Origin: Phycisphaerales bacterium | GTDB taxonomy: Bacteria > Planctomycetota > Phycisphaerae > UBA1845 | Direction: 5' to 3' | Assembly: GCA_020852275.1 (NCBI GenBank) | Contig: JADZBE010000011.1 | Coordinates: forward strand, 124,001 to 188,000 | DNA: 64,000 nucleotides | Shown here: positions 44,001-60,941 of the stretch, piece by piece | How positions within the stretch are numbered: position 1 is the stretch's first letter | Layout: the number at the start of each line of letters is the position of its first letter | Translations under genes and position numbers: made by a program | The notes under the pieces: model-generated | What the model saw: only the letters and a program-made list of their open reading frames with translations | What the model was told of the DNA's origin: nothing | The model's database searches: none

Positions 44001-47000
44001 TCATCCTGGAGCCGTAGGTGGAGGACCCAATCTGTGCTCAAGCCATTCAAAAAACTTCTGGGCAAACTGCCGCCATTCAATCTGCGTCTTGCCCCGCATA
44101 TCGCCAGTCTTTTGAATTATCTTATTGAGCCATGCTTTTATCTCCTTTGTCCAATGATTGAAATTCGGATCGTTAGGCCCGCCTGCAGCCACCTTGGCGG
44201 CGTGTGCATAAAGTTCTGGAAGCAAGGACAAACTGGCGGCTTTCGCTGCCGCCTGAGCTGAAGCCATGAACACCGTCAGGGCCTCAGCAGCGCCGAATGC
44301 CATTTCCGCGGAAGCATACGCGCCAGTCATCATTTGGTCGACCCCTTCAAGCAGGGAATCGAACCCGGCACTTGACATTCCTCCGCCGACGCCCCATCCG
44401 GTGGCAATCATGGGGCCAAGCATGCTTAGGAGCAAAGCTGCTGCCAAGCCGACTCGTTTTGCATCCTCCGCGCGCAAGTCCGCGCCTATCGCCGTGGCCC
44501 CGAGCAGATCTCCGTAACTAAACAACCCCAGCGCATCCAATAGATTGACCGGACTGCTTCCCAAGGAGCCGTAGAGGTTCATCCCGTCCCCATACGCGCC
44601 CATGGGCGAGTAATCCGAAATCACTCCCGAGCCGACCATCGCCAGCGCTGTCGGCGGCGTGCCGTGGTAGGTGGCGCCCTCGATCAGCGGGATGGCCGAA
44701 CTATTGGGATCCGGCGTGGTGAACCGTCCCAGTTTGGGGTGATAGAACCGGTTGCGGTTCTGGTAGAGGCCTTTGTGGTTGACCAGGATGCAGGGGTCGG
44801 TCGGGGTGTTGGCGCAGTAATGGTCGAAGATCAGGCCTTGGTGGCCGAGGGTGTTTTGCGGGGGTGTGGCGACGAACTTGTCGATGGCCGCGGGCTGGCC
44901 GTAGGGCTCGTAGGTATATTGCTCATAGATCGCCACCGGGCCGTCGGGGCAGAAGGCGCCCTGCTCGCCACATCCGCCGCTGCCGCTGCCGCAGTCGCCC
45001 GACGGACACCCGTCATCCAACGTCGCGACCACGTTGTAGTTGGCGTCTTGCAGGTAATATACGGGCAGCGAATCATCCGTCGCGCAGTGCCCCGCGGTAC
45101 TGCCGCCGCCGCCGGGGCCGTCGCAGGCGGGGTTAAGCACCTGTGCGACGAACTCATCGACATAGTCCGGGCCGTGCAGATACTCGCGTTTCGTCGCCCA
45201 ACTGCCCGTGGGCGCGCCCCCGCCGCAGCCGCTGGTTTCGGTGTACCACTGCTCCTGAATGCGGCGCACGCCGTCATAATAATAATGCTGATATTGCCGG
45301 CAGGCCGAACCGTAAGACGCCGGCAGCACGCGGGCGACGATCCGCCCCAGGCCGTCGTACACATACGTGGCCACCAGATCGCCGAGGTCCGATTCCTCGC
45401 CTGACAATAGTTTGCCGTCATCATCAAACGAGGCGGCATTAAGCAGGCCCTTGCGGTTCGTCTGCACCAGCCGGCCCCAGGCGTCGTACTGGTAGAAGTA
45501 GTCGCCGTCGAGGACGAGATTGCCCGCGGAGTCGTAGACGCTGTCGACGGTGACGGGAGAGTTGTTGTTGGTCTTGGATGTGAACGCGTCGATTTCATTG
45601 AAGCCGTTGGTCGCGTGGTGAACTTTGACCGTGGTTTCGGGCGTGCCGTCGCCGGTCGCGTCGTCGGCGCGGACGAAGCTGCCGTTGGTGGAATCGCCGC
45701 CCGACCAGTTGCCCAGGTCGTCCAAGTCCCACGTCAAGGCGCGGTCGAGGGGAACGTCGGTGTCGGGTTCGATGGCCGTGTTGGCCGCGTTAAGCTGACC
45801 CATGCGCGCGCCGGCGAGGCGCTGCAGACCGTCGTACTCATAAAGCCACGAGCGCACATTGTCACGGCCGGGGTCCGCACCACTGGTCATGTTCCGATGT
45901 GCGACGCGCGCGTACGCGCGGTTGCCCGCGCGATCATAACCATATTGGTACCGGTGAATCGTCGACGGATTGGGGGCGTTTGCGGTAGTGTCCTTGTAGT
46001 GCAGGTCCTTGATTCGCCCGAACCGGTCCAGCCCCGCCAGCCCGACCTCGCTGCCGAGCTTGTACGACTGCGCGGCGCCGTTGCCGACAGACAGGCCCGA
46101 GCGGCGCGACAGGCCGGCGTAGTTATACTGCGCGACCTTGTACGTCATCAGCGCATCTGTGATGGCGGTGACGCGATTGGCGGCGCTGTCGAGACCGGCC
46201 TCGTTGTCGCCGTAGTCAAAAGAAAGCTGCCGCGGATCGCCGCCGTCGGCTCGCTGCGGGTAGAGGATCGATGCCAGCCGGTCGAAGTTGTAAGTTTCCG
46301 CGCCGGCGGGACTGTAGGCCCACTCGTAGGTCACGGTGGGGATGAACGACAGCCCGGTTGCGGCTGCGTGGTTCTGTTCTTCGGAGAGCAGATTGCCGCG
46401 ACCGTCGTAGTCATACTCATTGTCGGCCACGTCAGCGGCGGTGGTTTCAGAATGGTTCTCCGCGTGGACCGTGAGCAGGTCGCTACGGTCATTGTAGGTG
46501 TAGTCGATCTGGTGCACGCGCAGCGGCGGGGCGTAGCCAACTTCGTTGCCGGCCTCGCCGTACCAGCCGGAGTCGTCGGCCCCCACGCGGGTCAGCCGGC
46601 CCAGCTCGTCGTAGGAGTAGTTGAAGAGGCACGCCCGCGCGTCGGCGCGAGAGGCCACCGCGCCGTCGAAGTAATAGGAGAACGACAGCGTCGGCCCCTC
46701 GCGCGTGCCGTCGAGGTCCGGATAGTGTACGCCGGCGATCCAGCCGGGGTTCTCGGAGACCGCCGCCGAACCCGGCTGCCCGTTCACGATTTCGCGCACC
46801 GATCCGCCGTAGGTGAAGGCCGTCACCTGGATCGAGCCGTCGTCTTCTTCCCAATCGATCTCGTCGTACACCGTAACGTCGCCATCGCCGTGCTGGGCGA
46901 GCACCGCAGCCATGGCATCGAGCAGACCGCTGGCTTCGCCGTACTTGTATGCGGTGCGGCGCTTGTCGGCGCTGTTCGTCGCCGTCGCGTTTTCGATGGT

Positions 47001-50000
47001 CAGGCGCAGCCGTCCCAGGCCATCGTACTCGGAGCGCGTGACCGCGCCATCGGGATGAGCGACGCCGATCTGCCGTCCGTCGTCGTCATATTCGTAGCAG
47101 GTGCAGAGAGTTTCCTCGCCAAACTCGCTGCCGTCGCACCCACTGAGGCGACCGTTGCCGTCGAAGGAAGCGGCCGGCGGATCGAGCGGATCCTCCGGGT
47201 CGTAGTCCGGAGGGGGGAGTTCGTTCACGAACTCGTTGGCACCTGAGGATTCGTTCTGGCCGCTGTTGGTCCCGAAGTTCGCCGTGGCGATGAGCCGGCC
47301 GGCGATGTCGAACCAACTGTAGACCCAGGTGCTCACACTGTTGTCGTCGTCGAGAGCGTCGCCGTTGCCATTGACTCGTTCGTACGTGCGCGTGGCGATG
47401 GGGCGACTGTCGGCGTCGTATTGGGTTTCAGTGCGCGTCAGCTCGATCTCGCCCGCCCATGTGGATGATGCGATCTGGCGCCCGAGTGCGTCATAAGTGT
47501 ACGTCTGCCGCGGGGCGTTGGGCGACAGGGTTTCCGTGGGCTTGGATAGGTGATTGTAATAGGTGCGCGTGGCCGTGTAGCTGAAGGGCGATTGCGTGTC
47601 CGACACGTCGTAGGTGCGAACTTCCTCCACCTGGCCTCGGTCGTTGTAGAGGTTCTCGGTGAGGGAGATGGGAGCGCTGCCCAGGAGCGTGGCCACGTCG
47701 GGCAGTGCGCAGTCCGCCCCGAGTGCGCGCGGATCGGCATTGCCCGAGGGCGGCGTGGGCCCATATTCAAGCTGGAACTTCACGCGATCCTGGTGATCAA
47801 GCCAGGTGACGGAGTGCGTCAACGCGGCGCCGGATTCATCGCGCCGCTGGGCCATGATTTCGCGCATGCGCCAGTCATAATAGTGACGGATCACATGGCC
47901 CAGTGCATCCTCATTGTTATTGGAGCAGTCGTCGATGCAGTACGGATCCGTCACGGCCTGCCGGTAGGACCGAACCTTGGTCAGCAGCCCCGCGTCATGC
48001 ACGCCTTCGCCGAAGTAGGATTCCGGATCGGTGTCCGTGGTTCCGTCGCTGTAGTAGCGCCGCTCAAGCAGGACAAGATCGTCGTCGGGATCTTCGGTTG
48101 GCGGGATGTTGCGCCAGAATGGGTGTTTGTCCCTGCTGCCGCGATAGGTTTTCTCAAGGCGGCCAAGGTCGTCATACGTGTTGCGCGTGAGTGTCCCCGC
48201 CGGATCCTGCTGGCGCGCGACTTGGCCAAAGCCGCTGTAACTGATGGCGGCGCTGAGCGACTCGCCGCCGGACTCGCCGGACATGCCGGTAAGGCGCCCC
48301 CCAGCGTCGTAGGAAGGCACGAGCGTCGCCAGAATGTCCTCCGCCCCATACGTTTCCAGTCCGTCGGGCGGATTGTGGAGCGCGTCGAGTTTGACTTTCT
48401 CCGTCTTGGAGAGTTTGCGTCCGGTGATTTCCTCGATTTGGACGGGCGAAAGCGCGGCGTAGGCCTGACCGTCGAGCACCACGTCGCGGTACGTCCATTT
48501 CTTCGTTATCTCGTCCGGTTCTTCGACATAGACGACGTGCTCCTGCCGGCCGTTGGGGAACGTGGTGACGTGGAGGCGCCAACGATCATCGTAGGAATAA
48601 GTGGTTGTGTACTCCAGCGGAGTGCCAGGGCCGATGCGCTGATAGTTCGAATCCTCCGGGTTGCCCGGATGATCGACGATCTGGGTAATGGGCCGGTCAT
48701 CCTGGTCGTACTCGAACTTGGTTATGAAGAAGGCGTCATGATCGCCGGCGCCGGGTGAACCGGGCGTCTTGAGGCTGCCAAGTCCGTGCCACAGCGTGTT
48801 GCCCTTCTCGTTGAACTGCCACCGCTCCACTCCGTAGTATGAGTCGGCATCGGCCTGATGCAGACGCGAGGCTGGTGCGACAACCTCTTTCTCAAGCACG
48901 GCGCGTTCGAAGGAACTCTCGCCTTCTTCCTGGTCGGCCAACGTGTACTCGTAGTTTGTCACGGCCACCGTGGATCCCGCGGCATCGAAATCTGTGGTCG
49001 GAACGAGAAAGCTCTTAGATGCGGTGACCAGGTCTGGGCGGAGCGTGTGATGATCGACGCGCGAAAGCCAATAGACGGAATCCTGGAGAGGATCCTGAAA
49101 AGGTTCGCTGGCGCCGCGTTTGATTCCCACACCGTGCAATTCGCCGAGCCGGCCGTTCGGACCGGAAGGCTCGTAGGTGAGGACGCGAACGAGGCCGTCC
49201 GTCTCCTTTGTGTTCAGGTTTGCGACGGCGTTCCATCCGGTGCTGCGGATTTCGAGCAGGTAACCTTCGCCGACTCCGTCCGCCAGCTCGTCCCCGTCCG
49301 GTCCATCGAGCATGAAGTCGTAGAGGCGGCTCTGGCGGAAGCCGCTTTGCTGGATGAACTGTTCTCCGTCCTGTGTAAACTGCCACTCCTGGTTGAATAC
49401 CTCGAACCCGGCCTTGTTAAACTCAACGTAGCGACGACTGCGCAGACCTTTGTTCTCGGTCGGGATATAATACGCAGAGTACGCATCATATGGGTCAAGA
49501 TTGTCGGCCTTCGACTCGATTTGGTCAGCGTCCAATTCGTCGACGATCGTGGCATAGAAACCTTCAGCCAAGGACGGCAACTGCGGATCGCATTGATATC
49601 CCGGGCCCAGCGAATACGGGTAATGGCCCATCATGCCCATGAAGGAAACATCATAAGAGTGCGCGCATTCAATCGGCAGTTTCAGATATGGATAATACGC
49701 GTACCAGCCCTGCGAGGAGCTGTCGGGCCGCCGGTCGATCAGGTGCGTCACGGAAGCCTGCTTGACCGGCATATGTTGATGATCGCCGTGTTGAACATAG
49801 TTGTCCGCGAAGTACGTGTCCGCCCCATCGTACTGTCCCGAGTAGCGATCGCTCGGACAGACGTCACACCCGGGTATCATGTAGCCGATCGTCAGGTCGG
49901 CATACTCCCAGAACTCTCTTCCTTCGGGTTCCGTGGGATCCGGCAGGAGCTCATCGCGCTCCAATGTAAGGAGTTCGTTGGCGGAGAGGCCGGAAACCGC

Positions 50001-51626
50001 CATGAGTTTGGCGACCGTTGATGGTTCGTAGATCTCCGTGGGAAACATGAGCTCCGGGACGCCGATCCAGCCGGCGCCGTTGTCGTTATCCCGCTCATAG
50101 AAATAAAGATAATGCGAGGATTCCGTCTCGAAGTTGACGGAAGACGGACGGTGATTCACAGTGGCCTTGGCGAGTTGGTTGTGAACCGGGGGGTCGCTGA
50201 TGTAATTGGATTCCCGGAAAAGTGTTTTGCTCTGACAGTAGCCCAACGGATCAGGGCAATCATCCGTGGAGACGTTCTCCCAGGCAAGCATATACGTGTA
50301 CCGGGCCTCGAGTTTCCAGCCCGTCGGCAAGTCCTCATGGTTTAGGGCGTCAATCTCATCCAAAGATTGCGCACAACAGAACGGCCCACTCGTCTGTCCA
50401 TTGCCCGGCGCGTAGTCGTCAATCGTCAGGCAGGAGTCGCTGAAGTCCACGTCGCCTTCATACACATGGATCGAATGAAGCGCGTTCTTTCCCTTGAGGT
50501 TTTCAGGCCACAGCCCGAAGCCTCGATACGTGTAAACAAGCGTCCAGACGACGGGCCCCGGCCCTTGTGCGGCAGGCGCCGTTCGAAGCCGAATCCGCCG
50601 AATCTGTCCTTTTCGCACGCAATCCTGGCAACAACATGGGTCGTTCGGCGGCTGAGAGGTCTGGCACGGGTATCGGTCTGTGTCGCCGCAATACTCGTAG
50701 TCGATCGAGTTTCCGTATCGATCTTCGATGCTGCGAATCAACCCATAAACCGGCCATTCGGGGTACTCGCCATCATAGGGTTCTCCCTCCGCGGTCCGCC
50801 AGGCATCCTCCGCATGAAGCTCGAATGTGTACTTGATGGATTGCCTTTGGAGCCAGACGTACACCTCGGTCGGCCGCTGACCGGATGCACCATTGTGATC
50901 GAGAATGGCGTCGAACCACTGGGGCGCAATGTAGGCGTTTTGATTCGTGTCGTAGAGGAACGGAATGGAGTGATGCGAATCGGGGATGAGGTAGCATCGC
51001 TTCGGAGGGCCCTCGGATCCACCGCCGCCGTACTCGCCCAGCCATTCCCACCAGGCATCAAATAGCAGGAAGGGCTGCTCACTCATCATCCAACCTTGCC
51101 CCTGCCAATCCCAGCGTGTGACCCCTTCCAAGGCAGCTTGTGCGTCTGATTGGTGCGGGAAGAAATCCGCCGACCAGGTTCGAATGTGACGGAAGACCGC
51201 CCCGCCGAACGGCAGCTCGAAATCAGTCGCCTGAATCAACGGCAGCCCGGTCACCAAGTCCACGACACCCCCATGAAGCGGCCGCTGAGGAAATGGGCTG
51301 GGCCCTTGGAACCCATCCGTCCGGGGGGGAAGAAGCGGCAGAGAACTCGTAAGCGGATCCGTGCTCCGCGGCGGAAACTCCGGCGGACCGAACCCGCAGG
51401 ACACGTCGAAATGCAAGGGCCAGACGGTACGGATGGGCGGCTGGCTTTCTTCGGGGCACTCACCCTGTGCGAAGTCAGGCCCGCAGCGCGAATCGGGACA
51501 CGGCTCCTGCCGGCCCATTGCGGACCCCGTGAGCATAAGGCTCAGCGCGCCCAGCGCCATCGACAAGACGCAACCGCGCGCGCCGTTCACTCGCACAACA
51601 AACCGTGTCGAATTGCAACCGTACAT
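44001..51626 (-). CDS. Large RHS/YD-repeat protein with variable C-terminal tail
   Basis: It is 2541 aa. It begins with an N-terminal signal (CVLSMALGALSLMLTGSAMG) and Cys-rich start, a region with VTGLPLIQATDFELPFGG, then many YD repeats (YDDLGRLEKTY, YDALGRQIASS, YDGLGRLRLTI, YDELGRLTRVG). The RHS-associated core ends with GDGMNLYGSLGSSPVNLLDA (about residues 2345-2365). The last ~170 residues are unrelated to the core, Ala-rich then lysine/tryptophan-rich (NHWTKEIKAWLNKIIQKTGD), in a lower-GC region, as in toxin tips. The strong AGGAGGAG before the ATG fits high translation. It is probably secreted and forms a shell around the tip. Tail activity is unknown. Confidence 0.9.
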   Translation of the reverse strand: MYGCNSTRFVVRVNGARGCVLSMALGALSLMLTGSAMGRQEPCPDSRCGPDFAQGECPEESQPPIRTVWPLHFDVSCGFGPPEFPPRSTDPLTSSLPLLPPRTDGFQGPSPFPQRPLHGGVVDLVTGLPLIQATDFELPFGGAVFRHIRTWSADFFPHQSDAQAALEGVTRWDWQGQGWMMSEQPFLLFDAWWEWLGEYGGGGSEGPPKRCYLIPDSHHSIPFLYDTNQNAYIAPQWFDAILDHNGASGQRPTEVYVWLQRQSIKYTFELHAEDAWRTAEGEPYDGEYPEWPVYGLIRSIEDRYGNSIDYEYCGDTDRYPCQTSQPPNDPCCCQDCVRKGQIRRIRLRTAPAAQGPGPVVWTLVYTYRGFGLWPENLKGKNALHSIHVYEGDVDFSDSCLTIDDYAPGNGQTSGPFCCAQSLDEIDALNHEDLPTGWKLEARYTYMLAWENVSTDDCPDPLGYCQSKTLFRESNYISDPPVHNQLAKATVNHRPSSVNFETESSHYLYFYERDNDNGAGWIGVPELMFPTEIYEPSTVAKLMAVSGLSANELLTLERDELLPDPTEPEGREFWEYADLTIGYMIPGCDVCPSDRYSGQYDGADTYFADNYVQHGDHQHMPVKQASVTHLIDRRPDSSSQGWYAYYPYLKLPIECAHSYDVSFMGMMGHYPYSLGPGYQCDPQLPSLAEGFYATIVDELDADQIESKADNLDPYDAYSAYYIPTENKGLRSRRYVEFNKAGFEVFNQEWQFTQDGEQFIQQSGFRQSRLYDFMLDGPDGDELADGVGEGYLLEIRSTGWNAVANLNTKETDGLVRVLTYEPSGPNGRLGELHGVGIKRGASEPFQDPLQDSVYWLSRVDHHTLRPDLVTASKSFLVPTTDFDAAGSTVAVTNYEYTLADQEEGESSFERAVLEKEVVAPASRLHQADADSYYGVERWQFNEKGNTLWHGLGSLKTPGSPGAGDHDAFFITKFEYDQDDRPITQIVDHPGNPEDSNYQRIGPGTPLEYTTTYSYDDRWRLHVTTFPNGRQEHVVYVEEPDEITKKWTYRDVVLDGQAYAALSPVQIEEITGRKLSKTEKVKLDALHNPPDGLETYGAEDILATLVPSYDAGGRLTGMSGESGGESLSAAISYSGFGQVARQQDPAGTLTRNTYDDLGRLEKTYRGSRDKHPFWRNIPPTEDPDDDLVLLERRYYSDGTTDTDPESYFGEGVHDAGLLTKVRSYRQAVTDPYCIDDCSNNNEDALGHVIRHYYDWRMREIMAQRRDESGAALTHSVTWLDHQDRVKFQLEYGPTPPSGNADPRALGADCALPDVATLLGSAPISLTENLYNDRGQVEEVRTYDVSDTQSPFSYTATRTYYNHLSKPTETLSPNAPRQTYTYDALGRQIASSTWAGEIELTRTETQYDADSRPIATRTYERVNGNGDALDDDNSVSTWVYSWFDIAGRLIATANFGTNSGQNESSGANEFVNELPPPDYDPEDPLDPPAASFDGNGRLSGCDGSEFGEETLCTCYEYDDDGRQIGVAHPDGAVTRSEYDGLGRLRLTIENATATNSADKRRTAYKYGEASGLLDAMAAVLAQHGDGDVTVYDEIDWEEDDGSIQVTAFTYGGSVREIVNGQPGSAAVSENPGWIAGVHYPDLDGTREGPTLSFSYYFDGAVASRADARACLFNYSYDELGRLTRVGADDSGWYGEAGNEVGYAPPLRVHQIDYTYNDRSDLLTVHAENHSETTAADVADNEYDYDGRGNLLSEEQNHAAATGLSFIPTVTYEWAYSPAGAETYNFDRLASILYPQRADGGDPRQLSFDYGDNEAGLDSAANRVTAITDALMTYKVAQYNYAGLSRRSGLSVGNGAAQSYKLGSEVGLAGLDRFGRIKDLHYKDTTANAPNPSTIHRYQYGYDRAGNRAYARVAHRNMTSGADPGRDNVRSWLYEYDGLQRLAGARMGQLNAANTAIEPDTDVPLDRALTWDLDDLGNWSGGDSTNGSFVRADDATGDGTPETTVKVHHATNGFNEIDAFTSKTNNNSPVTVDSVYDSAGNLVLDGDYFYQYDAWGRLVQTNRKGLLNAASFDDDGKLLSGEESDLGDLVATYVYDGLGRIVARVLPASYGSACRQYQHYYYDGVRRIQEQWYTETSGCGGGAPTGSWATKREYLHGPDYVDEFVAQVLNPACDGPGGGGSTAGHCATDDSLPVYYLQDANYNVVATLDDGCPSGDCGSGSGGCGEQGAFCPDGPVAIYEQYTYEPYGQPAAIDKFVATPPQNTLGHQGLIFDHYCANTPTDPCILVNHKGLYQNRNRFYHPKLGRFTTPDPNSSAIPLIEGATYHGTPPTALAMVGSGVISDYSPMGAYGDGMNLYGSLGSSPVNLLDALGLFSYGDLLGATAIGADLRAEDAKRVGLAAALLLSMLGPMIATGWGVGGGMSSAGFDSLLEGVDQMMTGAYASAEMAFGAAEALTVFMASAQAAAKAASLSLLPELYAHAAKVAAGGPNDPNFNHWTKEIKAWLNKIIQKTGDMRGKTQIEWRQFAQKFFEWLEHRLGPPPTAPG

Positions 51627-51886
51627 GGCCTTCTCCTCCTATTATCCAAGGGCCGGCCCGCAGCGTCGAGAGCCTCGATACGGCGAGCCTCAAACGATCC
51701 GCTATTGAGAATTCAACAATTCCACATCGCCAACCATCCCCGCGACCCCCGACCGGCCGGCGACAGCGGGCTGGCGTGGCCAAATCCTCGGACGGCCGAG
51801 CCCCGTGCCTTCGAGGGAAACACCGCCAGCACAACTCCGCGAGTTGACAGCCTTGCAGCGCCCACGAGCGATCGGCCCGCCAGCCT

Positions 51887-51988
51887 CCGCATGGGTTCAA
51901 GCAACGATCCGCATGGACTCAAGCCAGTCTCCGCACGGGTTCAAGCCACTCTCCGCATTGGCTCAAGCCGGTGTCCGCATTGGTTCAA
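51887..51988. repeat. 22-bp tandem repeat upstream of the RHS gene
   Basis: Four full units (CCGCATGGGTTCAAGCAACG + AT and variants) and a partial fifth are contiguous with no spacers. Units share CCGC(A/T)GG..TCAAGC. They begin 260 nt upstream of the RHS start codon. Confidence 0.8.
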
Positions 51989-52719
51989 AAGCGTTTCTGC
52001 GTACCTCGCCCCTCGTCCCTGCATCGGCTCCGCTGTTTCCCGCCACGCGCTGCGCCGGCAGCCATCAGGAAACGGCCATTCACCACTCCAGCTGCGATGC
52101 TGCTCCAGCGTCTTGCCGCTCGGGATAAATCTCACAGGTGCGCCCCAGATGTCGGGTGAGCGCAGGCGCGGTCGAAACGCCGGAGTCGCCGAAGCTTTGG
52201 CACTGAAGGAGGAGGGATGGAACTCGCCGGAGTCAGACGGAGACGCGACGCTCGGATGCGCGGCAAGGGAAAAGGGCTCCTGAGGAGCCAGCGACCGCAA
52301 ACCTCTTGGGAACGCAAGAGTTCTGGCCACCGTGGGGGCCTCCGACGGCAAGCGGACGACTCGCCTTGACGCTGGGCAAACCGTACGATGCTTCTATGGC
52401 GGATAATACTGGACGTCGAACGCAGTGTCAAGCGTTAGTCCCATAACGAACTTGCCGGGGCTGGCCACCGATCTTGGCAACCTCGTGCTCCCTCTTGGCG
52501 AAATGGCCTTATCGGCCCGGGAGGCGCACGCGAGAATCTCGAGGTGCGTCGTTTGCCAACAAGAACGACCAGAGCATCGGCACCCGGAGCCAAGGCCGGG
52601 GAATGCCTCCCCTCCGGGCATCGGTGCTAGACGCAGGCGTTGTTGACTGAAAGGCGCGATCCGAACCAGGTTGGGCTGCCGCAGGAGAAGTGTCGATCAG
52701 CGGGGAAGCCAGCGATGGT

Positions 52720-52824
52720 TCATTTGATGCCGGCGCTCTCTCATTCGATGCCGGCGATGGTTCATCTGAGGCCGGCGGTTGCTTGTTCCATGCAGGCGAA
52801 AGTTCCTTCGAGGCCGGCGTGCAC
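52720..52824 (+). repeat. 21-bp tandem repeat of about five units
   Basis: Each unit, if read in the frame of the first, encodes SFDAGxx or SSEAGxx (SFDAGAL, SFDAGDG, SSEAGGC, LFHAGES, SFEAGVH). It may be the remnant of a repeat-coding gene or a non-coding expansion. The reading frame extends to 52971, but I cannot support it as a real gene. Confidence 0.7.
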
Positions 52825-52903: not shown

Positions 52904-54628
52904 TCACAGCAAGAACGCCACGGTCCCATCCCACCCCGGGTCGGTCAGCCCGGCGCGGCCCAGCGCCATGATGCCGGCGACGGTGCCGTCGATGCGCTGC
53001 GTGGACTTCTTCTTCGAGGGTTTCAAGTTGCCCGCGGCGTCGGTTTCGACGGCGACGTTGCTGGCCATCCAGCGGAGGACGGGGTTTCCTCCGTGGCGGA
53101 GCTTGCGGCAGAGGATGAGCTTCTCCCATTCCTTGGTCGGCGCGGTCATGTCCTTGAACCCCTGACCGAACGTGACCACCGGGATGCCATCGCTTTGCAA
53201 CTGCGAAGTGATGTGCGTGGCGTTCCACGGGTCGATGGCGATTTCCCGGATGTCGAAGATGTCCCGCCATTCATTGATCCGCTGCCGGATGACGTCGTAA
53301 TCGACGACGTTGCCGGACGTCATCTCGATCAAGCCCTGCCGCGCCCAGGTCTCGTACGGCACGCGGTCCCGCCGCTCGCGCTTCTGCGCGTTCTCCGCCG
53401 GTATCCAGAACTTTGGCAGCACGGTGATGCCGCCGTCCTCGTCTTGGAAGACCATGACGAACGCGGAAATGTCCGTCGTCGTAGACAGGTCCAGTCCCGC
53501 CCAGCAGGTCCGGCCACGCAGCGCCTCCTCGTCGATCGGCGGTCCGGCCGAGGCATCCCACTGCTCCAGCGCCAGCCAGCGGACGTCCTGCTGCGTCTTC
53601 ATGTTCAGGTGCAGTCGCTTGAAAGTGTTCTCGTACGTCGGCGTCTCCCGCGCCCGGCGGCATTCGCGTTCCATGTATTCCATGCTCAGCGACACGCCCA
53701 AGTTGGGATTGGCCTTGGCCCAGACGTCCGGGTCGGTCCACTCCTCGTCGCGGGACGCTTCGTAGATCACCGGCAGGAACGCCGGATCATCGATCACGCC
53801 GTCTCGCACCTTGATCGCGTAGTCGTACTTCTCGTTGCAGATGGAATCCCGGTCATAGTCGGCGGTGGTGATGTAGATGATCAGCGGCTGTCGCCGGGCG
53901 CCGGTCGAGGTGGTCAGGACATCGACCAACTCCCGGTCGGGCTGGGCATGCAGTTCGTCGATGATCACGCCGTGCGCATTGACCCCGTGCTTGGTGTAGG
54001 CTTCGGCGCTGACCACCTTCAGCACGCTGCCCGTGGCCGGCACGGTGATGGCGTTCGTGTAGATGCGGGATCTTCCGGCCAGTTCCGGCTCGGCCAGGAC
54101 CATCGTCTTGGCAGCATTGAACACCAGGCGCGCCTGCTCGCGATCGGCCGCGGCGCAGTAGACCTGCGCGCCCGGCTCGCCGTCCGCAAAGGTCAGCAGG
54201 TTGCCGAGTCCCCCGGCCAGCGTGCTCTTGCCCGATTTGCGCGGCACGTAGATGAACGCCTCGCGGTAGCGGCGCATCCCATTGGAACGCTTCCAGCCGA
54301 AGAGGTTGGCCACGACGGCTTGCTGCCACGGTTGAAGGCGGAAGGGCTGGCCCATCCATTCCCCGGCCGTGAACGTCAGGCATTCCTCGAAGAAGTCCAG
54401 CGCCCGCTGCGCGGCCTTGGGATCGAAGCACGACTCGCCGGAAAACAGGAACGGGTCGTATCCGGGAATGTTCCGGCAGATGATTTCCAGCGAGGGAGGT
54501 GCGGGTGTGAACAGGCGCGATTTGGATGAACGGCCGGTCCGCTGAGCCTGTCCCGCGGCCTTTCGCATGGCGCGCTTCGGCGTGCTGTCTGACATGTCTG
54601 ACAGGGCCGCATCTGCCTCACCCGACAT
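52904..54628 (-). CDS. terL: Phage terminase large subunit
   Basis: It is 574 aa. The ATPase has Walker A YVPRKSGKSTLAGG (about residues 118-131), Walker B VIIDELHAQPD, and the motor motif TTADYDRDSI. The nuclease domain starts CWAGLDLSTTTDISAFV with its Asp, and EIAIDPWNATHI follows. It packages DNA at the portal. The ATG at 54628 overlaps the end of terS; 48 nt of upstream frame is inside terS. The downstream region has no portal or capsid genes, only repeats and the RHS gene. Confidence 0.9.
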   Translation of the reverse strand: MSGEADAALSDMSDSTPKRAMRKAAGQAQRTGRSSKSRLFTPAPPSLEIICRNIPGYDPFLFSGESCFDPKAAQRALDFFEECLTFTAGEWMGQPFRLQPWQQAVVANLFGWKRSNGMRRYREAFIYVPRKSGKSTLAGGLGNLLTFADGEPGAQVYCAAADREQARLVFNAAKTMVLAEPELAGRSRIYTNAITVPATGSVLKVVSAEAYTKHGVNAHGVIIDELHAQPDRELVDVLTTSTGARRQPLIIYITTADYDRDSICNEKYDYAIKVRDGVIDDPAFLPVIYEASRDEEWTDPDVWAKANPNLGVSLSMEYMERECRRARETPTYENTFKRLHLNMKTQQDVRWLALEQWDASAGPPIDEEALRGRTCWAGLDLSTTTDISAFVMVFQDEDGGITVLPKFWIPAENAQKRERRDRVPYETWARQGLIEMTSGNVVDYDVIRQRINEWRDIFDIREIAIDPWNATHITSQLQSDGIPVVTFGQGFKDMTAPTKEWEKLILCRKLRHGGNPVLRWMASNVAVETDAAGNLKPSKKKSTQRIDGTVAGIMALGRAGLTDPGWDGTVAFLL

Positions 54629-55106
54629 TGAAGAACCGCGCCTTGCCACTGGGCTTCTCCTGGCCTTGCGGAGCAAGCTGTAGTCTTGCCCGGGCCGACG
54701 GCGTCATGCCGAACTCCTGCTCCAGCCGGGTGAGGTGCTGCGCCAGCCGGTGGGCGATGGCCACCTGCGGCCACTGCTGGAAGCACTTCACCTGTCCGGC
54801 GTCGTCCTTGATCGGGTACATTTCCCCGCGCTCGCGGATGAATTCTTCGGCCTTGCGCCACCGCGCCCACAGATGGCAGTAGCGCCCCAGCGCGTGACCG
54901 TCGAGACGGGAGAGGACGCCCATGCCGTCCAGCATGGGCAGGAGTTCATCCCATGCGGCGCGGGCGTCGGCGTCGAGCCAGGCGGGGGGGTCGGGAACCC
55001 CCGTCGGGGCCTGCACCTCGCGGGCTTCGCGCTGGCGGGTCACCAGCGTGCTGCCGCGGAGCTTCAGGATGTTCGTCGGCGTCGGGGCCGGTCCGCGGCG
55101 TCCCAT
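54618..55106 (-). CDS. terS: Phage terminase small subunit, P27 family
   Basis: It is 162 aa. MGRRGPAPTPTNILKLRGST starts the protein as in P27 family members, and the helical region WDELLPMLDGMGVLSRLDGH and WRKAEEFIRERGE follow. The C-terminal FGMTPSARARLQLAPQG matches the P27 fold end. It recognises the packaging start. It overlaps terL by 11 nt, a standard packaging pair. The HNH gene upstream fits the known HNH-TerS-TerL order. Confidence 0.9.
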   Translation of the reverse strand: MGRRGPAPTPTNILKLRGSTLVTRQREAREVQAPTGVPDPPAWLDADARAAWDELLPMLDGMGVLSRLDGHALGRYCHLWARWRKAEEFIRERGEMYPIKDDAGQVKCFQQWPQVAIAHRLAQHLTRLEQEFGMTPSARARLQLAPQGQEKPSGKARFFNVG

Positions 55107-58138: not shown

Positions 58139-58780
58139 GTGACTCCTGAATCGTTGCACCGCGGAAGCCCCAGGATCGTACTCCTCTCCGTCCTTTCCGC
58201 TCTCGGGCTGCTGTTGTGGCTGACGGTTGATTCGCCTTGGCTGAAGTGTTTTGGCCTCCCCTTCCTCTTGCTTGTTCTGTACCCGACCGTTTTGCTCATT
58301 CGCCCGGTCCGGCAACACCGTCCGCCACAGTCGCTCGTTGCTGCGACGACTTGGCTTTCCAGTCTCGCACTTTTGATGTGGATCGTGAGTTTGGTTCTCG
58401 TTGTCGATTTCCATACCGGGCCGGACTCTATGTGGAGCTTCGGCCACGGTGCAATCATTCATACCCCTTACGGTGCGCGGCATGGCGGCGCCTCAAGAAT
58501 CCAGATGCGAGTGGACTTTGATCCGTTGGCAGCGTTCGAACTTGGATACATCGGCATCAGGCTTACGGCGTGGGGGTGTGTGCGAGAGGACGCGACACCT
58601 ATCTGGCCGCTGGTCGTCGCCAGCGTCGTTCCCGCGTGGGCAATCCGGCGATTGCGCCGCGAACGAGTTCCACACGGCGCTTGTGAACGTTGCACCTACG
58701 ACCTTCGAGGTAACCTGTCCGGACGATGCCCAGAATGTGGCGCCCTGATTAACCATGCCGCTCCGCCTTCCGTCCCGTGA
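58139..58780 (+). CDS. Membrane protein with C-terminal zinc ribbon
   Basis: It is 213 aa. There are about three to four membrane segments (IVLLSVLSALGLLLWLTV, GLPFLLLVLYPTVLLI, LSSLALLMWIVSLVLVV, and one near TPIWPLVVASVVPAWA). The tail CERCTYDLRGNLSGRCPECG is a zinc ribbon typical of planctomycete hypothetical proteins. The GTG start is unusual. The gene has lower GC than neighbours and overlaps the convergent methyltransferase by 32 nt. Function unknown. Confidence 0.7.
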   Translation: MTPESLHRGSPRIVLLSVLSALGLLLWLTVDSPWLKCFGLPFLLLVLYPTVLLIRPVRQHRPPQSLVAATTWLSSLALLMWIVSLVLVVDFHTGPDSMWSFGHGAIIHTPYGARHGGASRIQMRVDFDPLAAFELGYIGIRLTAWGCVREDATPIWPLVVASVVPAWAIRRLRRERVPHGACERCTYDLRGNLSGRCPECGALINHAAPPSVP

Positions 58781-60941
58781 ACCGCTCCCAGCGCTGCACG
58801 ATCACATCCGCGTAGAGGGCATCGAGCTCCATCAGGAACGCCCGCCGCCCGGTCTGCTCCGCCGCAATCAGTGTTGAGCCGCTTCCGCCAAACAGATCCA
58901 GCACGTTCTCGCCCGGGCGCGACGAGTATTGCATCGCGCGCACGGCCAGCTCGACGGGCTTCTCGGTCAAATGCACCATGCTCTGCGGATTGACCTTCTT
59001 GATGTGCCAAAGGTCGGTCGCATTGTTCGGACCCAGATACACATGCGCGGCGCCTTCGCGCCATCCATAGAAGCAGTTGTGCGTGACCAGTCCGTCGGCG
59101 ACGTAGTGGCGGTAGCGATCGACATCCATCGAATACACATCACCATCGAACGCGCAGCGCTCGACCGCATCGATCGGCGACCACCGCACGGCCTGTCCAC
59201 GCTCAGGCACCGGGACCATCATGACCTCGGGCAGCAGATTGCAGCCGCGCGTGAGCGTCGAAACCCGCCGGCTAATCTTGGGCTTCGTGCCTTCCACGCG
59301 CACAAACGGATGCTTCGCCGACCGGCCGTGATCCGCCAAGAGCCGCAGGGCGTTGCTCTGCAGCGCCTTCAAATCCAGCCTGTCGTACAGACGTCCAACA
59401 TCGGCAACGGTTCGTCGGGATGACGCCGACTCCGACCAGGTCGTGGTGGGAATCCCGTACTCGGCCAGCATCACCTGCTCCATGATCGTGGCTTCGACGT
59501 TCGACGGATGGACCGTGAGAATCCACGCCTCTTCGCCCCCTTCGGTCTTGAGGCGGTGCTTGACGCCGAATCCCCAGGTCGAGAGCAGCTTGGACTTTCC
59601 CACGCGCCACCAGTCGCCGCGGCGCATCACATAGACGCACCAGTAGGACTCAGCGACCGGCGAGAGCTTCGTGCTCCACAGATGTCCCGGTGTACACCAG
59701 GTAGTCTTGCCGCCCACGCGAACGCCGTGCATTGTGCCCTGATAGGGTCGCGCGGTGGGGCGCACTGCCAGGCCCTCGCGCAACCCAACCATCGCGTGGT
59801 GGTTCCGGCTGTAACCGATGACCCGGTCACCTTCCCGCAGGGAGCAGATTGGAACGGGTCCATCAGGCGTCTCCACTTGGGTTCCGGCGGGCTGACACCA
59901 CTCATGTGCGCCCATGTAATCCTTGCGGGTGAGCACCGGATGCTGTTTGTCCCAGATGATCGCTTGCGAGAAGTAGAGGCCCGTGGCCTTGAGCACCGGT
60001 GGGTAATTGCCGACGTTTGCGTACCCGCCCCAGATGTAGAACGCGCGCCCGGGTTCGAGCACGCGGGCGATGTTGCCGAACCACGCGGCCAGCAGCCGGT
60101 CGAACTCCTCGTCGCTCACGAAGTCGTTGGCCAGAGGGCGGTCCTTGGGTCGCAGCTTGGCATGCGTGGCCTGCTTCGGTCCCTGCCGCGCCACGTCGAA
60201 TGCCTGATGATGGTGCAGGCCCTTCTCACCCCGCGCGGCATCGACCGCCTGGGTCAACGACTGGCTCTTCATTAAAGAGAATGAACTGTTGCCCGCGGCG
60301 ATGGCGTTGTTGCTGCGCGGCTCGACCTTCACATTGTAAGGCGGATCGGTATTCGCGAGATGGATCGGGGTGGGCCGGCTCGCCGAGCCACCAGTCCCCA
60401 GCAGCCGATCCACGTCGGCCGCGCTGCTTGAATCGCCGCACATCAACCGGTGGTCGCCAAGGACCCAGATATCCCCGCGCTGCGTCGTCGCCTCGTCCGG
60501 CGGATCGGGGACGGCATCCGGATCGGTCAGTCCGTCTTTCACGCCGACATCAAACAACTGGGCCAACTCGTCGACGGTGAACCCCAGCGCTTCGAGGTCG
60601 ACATCCATCGCCTGAAGATCACCCAGTTCAACGGCGAGCTGCTCCAAGTTCCACGCGGTCAGCTCGTGCAGCTTGTTATCCGCGACGCGGAACGCCTTGG
60701 CCTGCTCCGCTGTCAGCTCACGCGCCACGTGGACGGGCACCTCGGTCAGCCCCAGCCTCCGTGCCGCCAGCAGTCGCGTATGCCCGGCAATCAGCACGCC
60801 GCCGCCGTCCACGACCACCGGCACGCGCCAACCATAGTTGCGGATCGACTCCGCCACGGCGGCCACCGCGCGCTCGGAAATGTCGCGCGGGTTGCGGTCG
60901 TATGGTTTGATGCGGTCAATGGACCACATTTCGATGTTCAT
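58749..60941 (-). CDS. ParB-like/adenine DNA methyltransferase interrupted by an intein
   Basis: The precursor is 730 aa. Residues 1-95 are a ParB/Srx-like nuclease-fold domain (SIDRIKPYDRNPRDIS, VLIAGHTRLLAARRLG). TDPPYNVKVEP (about residue 199) is the adenine methylase catalytic motif. After MGAHEW at residue 348 comes a 274-residue intein, and the C-extein resumes as CFYGWREGAAHVYLG and DLFGGSGSTLIAA, the SAM site. The spliced enzyme would be 456 aa, normal for the ParB-MTase fusion in phages and plasmids. It likely N6- or N4-methylates element DNA. AAGGAGGT lies just before the ATG. The intein must splice for activity. Confidence 0.9.
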   Translation of the reverse strand: MNIEMWSIDRIKPYDRNPRDISERAVAAVAESIRNYGWRVPVVVDGGGVLIAGHTRLLAARRLGLTEVPVHVARELTAEQAKAFRVADNKLHELTAWNLEQLAVELGDLQAMDVDLEALGFTVDELAQLFDVGVKDGLTDPDAVPDPPDEATTQRGDIWVLGDHRLMCGDSSSAADVDRLLGTGGSASRPTPIHLANTDPPYNVKVEPRSNNAIAAGNSSFSLMKSQSLTQAVDAARGEKGLHHHQAFDVARQGPKQATHAKLRPKDRPLANDFVSDEEFDRLLAAWFGNIARVLEPGRAFYIWGGYANVGNYPPVLKATGLYFSQAIIWDKQHPVLTRKDYMGAHEWCQPAGTQVETPDGPVPICSLREGDRVIGYSRNHHAMVGLREGLAVRPTARPYQGTMHGVRVGGKTTWCTPGHLWSTKLSPVAESYWCVYVMRRGDWWRVGKSKLLSTWGFGVKHRLKTEGGEEAWILTVHPSNVEATIMEQVMLAEYGIPTTTWSESASSRRTVADVGRLYDRLDLKALQSNALRLLADHGRSAKHPFVRVEGTKPKISRRVSTLTRGCNLLPEVMMVPVPERGQAVRWSPIDAVERCAFDGDVYSMDVDRYRHYVADGLVTHNCFYGWREGAAHVYLGPNNATDLWHIKKVNPQSMVHLTEKPVELAVRAMQYSSRPGENVLDLFGGSGSTLIAAEQTGRRAFLMELDALYADVIVQRWERFTGRKAERHG
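59076..59897 (-). other. Intein with GIY-YIG-like endonuclease domain
   Basis: It is 274 residues. Block A is CQPAGTQVETPDGPVPICSL with REGDRVIGY, block B is TTWCTPGHLWSTKL, and block F/G is VYSMDVDRYRHYVADGLVTHN followed by Cys+1 of the extein. All splicing residues (Cys1, block-B His, penultimate His, terminal Asn, Cys+1) are in place. Between B and F, CVYVMRRGDWWRVGKSKL, then GVKHRLKTEGG and TIMEQVMLAEYGIP, look like the GIY-YIG nuclease core with its Arg and Glu. I see no LAGLIDADG or HNH motif. Confidence 0.85.

Follow-up and report, generated by a model that had tools for sequence, protein, structure and literature searches.

An intein with a putative GIY-YIG homing endonuclease in a phage-type DNA methyltransferase gene of a planctomycete

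Introduction

A phage-type DNA methyltransferase gene of a Phycisphaerales bacterium contains an in-frame insert, which raises two questions: whether this insert is an intein, and which type of nuclease lies in its middle. The locus was analysed within a window of 64,000 nucleotides (contig JADZBE010000011.1, positions 124,001 to 188,000 of the forward strand), and all positions given below refer to this window unless a relative is named. The original prediction, made from the sequence alone, had proposed an intein carrying a GIY-YIG-like homing endonuclease. A survey from 2006 described GIY-YIG nucleases only from free-standing genes and from group I introns, with none in inteins (PMC1564403). 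A GIY-YIG intein was likewise not found in full-text searches of the open literature.

Results

Host gene and genomic context

The methylase precursor most likely starts at the ATG at 60941, the frame being open as far as 61430 (Table 1). The methylase is of the phage type, as it matches the DNA methyltransferase family phrog_498 of PHROGs with an E-value of 1.7e-117. This, together with the nearby terminase large subunit gene, confirms the host gene originally proposed, and the terminase gene marks the region around the methylase as phage-derived. The GC content is 0.642 for the insert and 0.643 for the exteins, and the host genome, of 5.05 Mb, contains a single copy of the intein.

Two further features of the region were observed. 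Short degenerate tandem repeats are found at 51879-51988 and 52708-52819 (units of 22/44 and 21/42), just beyond the 3' end of the terminase gene, and an open frame of 2541 amino acids on the minus strand (44001-51626), adjoining phage-like genes, possibly encodes a large secreted repeat protein.

Table 1 Features of the intein-bearing methylase locus, with their window coordinates
Feature	Position	Strand	Basis
Terminase large subunit gene	52904..54676	-	phrog_9, 1.8e-181; about 4 kb from methylase
Methylase precursor gene with intein (ParB domain and N6-N4 adenine-type DNA methyltransferase)	58749..60941	-	ORF, Pfam, PHROGs
N-extein, ParB-like domain and first methylase part, ending ...YMGAHEW	59898..60941	-	phrog_498
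C-extein, CFYGWREG...LFGGSGSTLIAAEQ...	58749..59075	-	Pfam N6_N4_Mtase; Cys+1 codon at 59073-59075
Intein, 274 aa	59076..59897	-	Frame, splicing residues, HINT fold
Splicing block A, CQPAGTQVETPDG (C1)	59859..59897	-	Sequence and conservation in relatives
Splicing block B, ...TTWCTPGHLWS (T69 and H72, in WCTPGHLW)	59670..59708	-	Conservation in relatives
Splicing blocks F and G, ...GDVYSMDVDRYRHYVADGLVTHN (H273-N274, then C+1)	59076..59153	-	Sequence, intein_Cterm, conservation
Predicted GIY-YIG nuclease domain, residues 84-152 (strand-strand-helix-strand-helix)	59442..59648	-	Profile comparison, predicted structure
GIY motif equivalent CVYVM (Tyr89)	59625..59639	-	Y89 in 65/65; aligned to GIY of UvrC/URI-type proteins
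YIG motif equivalent RVGKS (Arg98, Gly100)	59592..59606	-	R98 and G100 both in 65/65
Arg115, candidate catalytic Arg, first helix	59553..59555	-	64/65; helix 111-119
Glu140, candidate metal-binding Glu, second helix	59478..59480	-	65/65; helix 133-147
Helical extension, residues 153-219, candidate DNA-recognition part	59241..59441	-	Helices 164-172 and 176-189; role putative

The insert and its splicing domain

The insert comprises 822 bases, or 274 codons (CQPAG...VTHN), and lies in frame between HEW and CFYGW, the first residue of the latter being Cys+1. It contains the residue set of class 1 inteins, namely C1, T69 and H72 of block B, H273-N274, and C+1. T69, H72 and N274 are shared by all of the 65 relatives compared, a diverse set, as is C1 by every row that reaches it, and position 273 is a histidine in 53. 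The claim that splicing blocks A, B and F/G are complete was thus upheld, both in the sequence and in its relatives. For the single sequence, family HMMs are weak but consistent: the matches to the Pfam models Hint_2 (E 9e-5) and Intein_splicing (E 0.0019) fall short of their curated cut-offs, while the intein passes the cut-off of the NCBIfam model intein_Cterm, which also matches all 65 relatives.

An AlphaFold2 model of the intein, built with the 65 relatives, had a mean pLDDT of 95.8 and a pTM of 0.91. It superimposed on the NpuDnaB intein structure with a Z-score of 20.1 (rmsd 1.4 over 133 residues) and on a hedgehog structure with a Z-score of 20.4, these alignments spanning 133-138 residues.

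A contiguous HEWCFYGW-type site was found at 63 related loci lacking the intein, where the DNA is joined exactly and nothing is duplicated; intein-free homologues with exteins 83-92% identical carry this motif. Such intein-free homologues had been named in advance as a check, and they also bear out the proposal that the insertion point lies at a conserved methylase site. The coordinates and reading frame initially assigned to the intein proved exact. HINT fold, splicing residues and empty site together confirm that 59076-59897 encodes an intein with a HINT splicing fold of class-1 type, which would excise itself and ligate its exteins. A genome belonging to the same order (G084) carries an intein-bearing methylase plus intein-free methylases, indicating that homing would not be saturating.

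The putative nuclease domain

The middle of the intein displays the layout described originally, CVYVM...WWRVGKS followed by Arg and Glu, the last two corresponding to Arg115 and Glu140. Y89, M91, R98, G100, W125 and E140 are identical in all 65 relatives and R115 in 64 of them; Y89, R98, G100, R115 and E140 are as invariant as the splicing residues. The position of the YIG tyrosine is occupied by arginine (Arg98) in all members. In the AlphaFold2 model, this region is composed of strands 86-93 and 96-103, helix 111-119, strand 123-130 and helix 133-147.

When predicted alone, the nuclease domain reached a pLDDT of 91.9. A Foldseek search of this domain against the PDB gave no match under an E-value of 0.65, and GIY-YIG matches emerged only on realignment of the Foldseek candidates: among 298 aligned chains, 13 entries had a Z-score of at least 2, and every one was GIY-YIG, with modest Z-scores of 3.3-4.6. 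These entries comprise Slx1, UvrC and I-TevI, as well as UPF0213 and a 5hmC-specific restriction enzyme, which also belong to the GIY-YIG nucleases. Among viral models, the best named matches outside the intein family were one labelled GIY-YIG and one labelled homing endonuclease (E 1e-3 and 2.6e-3).

Profile-profile comparison (hhalign) of residues 84-156 with planctomycete GIY-YIG domains yielded a score of 25.3 (P 2.4e-4), at a probability of only 43%. The controls remained lower: the best of 150 column shuffles scored 18.6, the reversed profile 13.5, and the best of 24 natural windows 17.1. The register places VYVM on GIY and RVG on YIG, with A136/E140 on the Glu helix in the full-length alignment.

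Family HMMs gave a different result. Alignment of the middle to GIY-YIG HMMs had been suggested, with noise-level scores counting against the assignment, and this is literally what the Pfam scan returned: none of the 65-69 members had a GIY-YIG match, nor did any match LAGLIDADG or HNH. No credible nuclease match was obtained for these members with Pfam, NCBIfam or PHROGs, and the nuclease profile, run with hmmsearch on the sequences of the PDB, likewise found no match. As Pfam PF01541 detects GIY-YIG proteins in 29 of 30 related genomes, the model itself works, and the intein nuclease family appears to be divergent. The GIY-YIG call thus stood with respect to predicted fold and invariant catalytic positions, but not with respect to the Pfam HMM. 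Kinship at the level of sequence profiles, which supports membership of the superfamily without defining it, was mixed, the score exceeding all controls at a low probability. Taken together, the controlled profile comparison, the predicted structure and the invariance of the catalytic positions support the assignment of the middle as a putative GIY-YIG domain.

Relatives, hosts and insertion sites

A scan of viral contigs, GTDB genomes, phages and plasmids revealed 116 distinct related inteins, and a layout kept in so many relatives excludes chance. They are inserted in methylases at HE[WP]^C (83), in UvrD-like helicases at GDxxQ^[SC] (29) or GDx^CQ (3), and in one other gene. Named carriers include Bacillus phage SPO1 (gp34.33), CampHawk, Streptococcus suis phages and coliphages such as muut and phi92; plasmid carriers come from Nostoc, Stanieria, Thermobispora and Providencia. 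In 392 genomes of the phylum and in the phage and plasmid records, no free-standing copy of the nuclease was found.

Selection, recombination and loss

The nuclease is under purifying selection, with a dN/dS of about 0.11: over 157 pairs, the nuclease has a median of 0.114 and the splicing part one of 0.097. The intein tree and the extein tree are strongly at odds, each being rejected by the other (delta lnL of about 1057 and 1088). Between the splicing and nuclease parts, delta lnL is 108-155, so that the histories of these two parts are far closer to each other than either is to that of the exteins. The trees of the N- and C-exteins of the methylases (61 intein-bearing loci) also conflict strongly, so the methylase gene flanking the intein is itself a mosaic produced by recombination. 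Part of the conflict between intein and extein trees therefore reflects general phage recombination. As clean proof of homing, this conflict is weakened by that between the two extein halves.

In a Pirellulaceae MAG (L122:1733-2164), a mini-intein of 144 amino acids occupies the same methylase site; the stretch from block B to block F, and with it the nuclease, is gone, which provides natural domain borders. Three other loci (L116, L120 and L121) hold degraded or chimeric copies, with an intein fragment in a frame of 171 amino acids and frames whose N-terminal half has been replaced. The co-occurrence of filled sites, empty sites and loss forms is consistent with a putative cycle of cutting and homing, for which empty sites, tree conflict and purifying selection are indirect signs only.

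Discussion

We consider it very likely that the methylase locus carries a mobile intein of class-1 type with a GIY-YIG homing endonuclease inside its HINT splicing domain, which would cut and home. The methylase precursor would be translated whole, and Cys1, Thr69 and His72 of block B, Asn274 and Cys+1, judging from residues and fold, would release the intein and ligate HEW with CFYGW. The GIY-YIG domain, with Tyr89, Arg98, Gly100, Arg115 and Glu140, would cut intein-free alleles at the methylase motif, probably assisted in DNA recognition by the helical extension and by parts of the splicing fold. Cutting would take place when two phages or prophages share a cell, and the site would then be filled as the break is repaired with the intein-bearing copy as template.

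Three other explanations were weighed. That there is no intein at all, but an in-frame insertion or another HINT type (hedgehog-like or BIL) that cleaves and does not splice, could be argued from the scores of hedgehog and BIL HINT folds, which are as high as those of inteins. This seems scarcely credible in view of the His-Asn end with Cys, Ser or Thr next to it, the precise position of the insert within a conserved methylase motif that is contiguous in empty alleles, and the annotation of the relatives in SPO1 and CampHawk as inteins. It is also very improbable that the middle represents a homing nuclease with a different fold, either a known one (LAGLIDADG, HNH, PD-(D/E)xK or EDxHD) or an unknown one, whose likeness to GIY-YIG is convergent. 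The lack of a match to the GIY-YIG family HMM would favour such a fold, as would the fact that LAGLIDADG is the nuclease of most known inteins (PMC5050341). Nevertheless, the LAGLIDADG and HNH profiles did not match either, the confident model aligned at a Z-score of at least 2 with GIY-YIG structures only, and profile register and catalytic positions agree with GIY-YIG.

A working intein whose middle retains the GIY-YIG fold but has lost homing, its positions being kept for other reasons such as structure or regulation of splicing, is somewhat less remote, albeit unlikely. The modest structural Z-scores, the arginine at the YIG tyrosine and the coexistence of intein-free and intein-bearing methylase genes in one genome leave room for such a case. 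Against it stand the invariance of Tyr89, Arg98, Gly100 and Glu140 in all 65 relatives, across three kinds of host gene, and the low dN/dS. The existence of a mini-intein without the domain further implies that the domain is dispensable for persistence of the intein. We therefore retain the mobile GIY-YIG intein as the preferred reading.

The closest known system is the intein in the UvrD-type helicase of SPO1 (gp34.33) and CampHawk, which is homologous over the full 274 amino acids (35% identity, E 5e-42) and has the same splicing residues and GIY-YIG-like middle, but resides in another host gene and at another site, the helicase motif GDDDQ^S. The SPO1 and CampHawk records call the insert an intein, the annotation notes examined naming no nuclease type, and none is named in the CampHawk paper (PMC3868849). 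I-TevI and Seg, which are group I intron-borne or free-standing phage GIY-YIG nucleases, share the fold class and the catalytic layout, with the tyrosine of GIY, the glycine of YIG, an arginine in helix 1 and a glutamate in helix 2. In contrast to these, the methylase nuclease lies inside an intein, has an arginine in place of the YIG tyrosine, and shows no NUMOD or zinc finger. In T5orf172/MUG113, of the GIY-YIG clan, the sequences examined show a lysine at the YIG tyrosine position and a similar Arg-to-Glu spacing, so a basic residue at this position is not foreign to the clan. T5orf172 was not retained as the closest subfamily: the register is plausible by eye, but the profile score of 16.3 was reached by 2 of 150 shuffles, which is noise level, and Pfam gave no match.

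LAGLIDADG domains are larger than the insert between blocks B and F of the methylase intein, which is about 136 amino acids. LAGLIDADG inteins of phage terminases and other genes (PMC5050341) are likewise phage-borne and mobile and occupy a conserved motif of an essential-type gene, but differ in nuclease family. In the actinophage ShiLan, a methylase insertion hides an HNH endonuclease (PMC11855218); this insertion differs from the methylase intein in lacking a splicing domain and in having its nuclease in another frame.

The relatives probably constitute a distinct class of mobile inteins with a divergent GIY-YIG endonuclease, marked by the invariant arginine for the YIG tyrosine and previously unrecognised as GIY-YIG inteins. 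The class would reside in UvrD-like helicases and methylases of phage type and would span Planctomycetota, Acidobacteriota and Pseudomonadota, phages of Streptococcus and Bacillus, coliphages, and plasmids of cyanobacteria. GIY-YIG would then be a further nuclease fold captured by inteins, in the form of a compact insert offering a small intein-nuclease chassis, and the full, mini and degraded forms would provide a natural series for the homing cycle. Since members are present in laboratory phages (SPO1 and coliphages related to muut and phi92), splicing, cutting and homing are open to phage crosses.

Several individual members show peculiarities. One (L231:3001-3909) represents the third kind of host gene; it separates ICRDEK from CPFFDKCP in a cysteine-rich motif of a 593-aa frame. 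Within one helicase motif, the insertion points of L011, L012 and L013 (GDP^CQAI) and of L009 (GDDDQ^S) are 2 residues apart. The Providencia rettgeri plasmid unnamed2 (L010:1613-3721) contains an intein-bearing methylase frame of 702 amino acids without a gene in the distributed table. Finally, the members in a planctomycete PcrA/UvrD-like helicase (L253) and in the helicase of E. coli phage muut (L014) have an extra segment after the GIY-YIG domain, which ends in a beta-plus-helix pattern (RYRVRKYFNSYREALSFAQ) and is possibly an additional DNA-binding domain.
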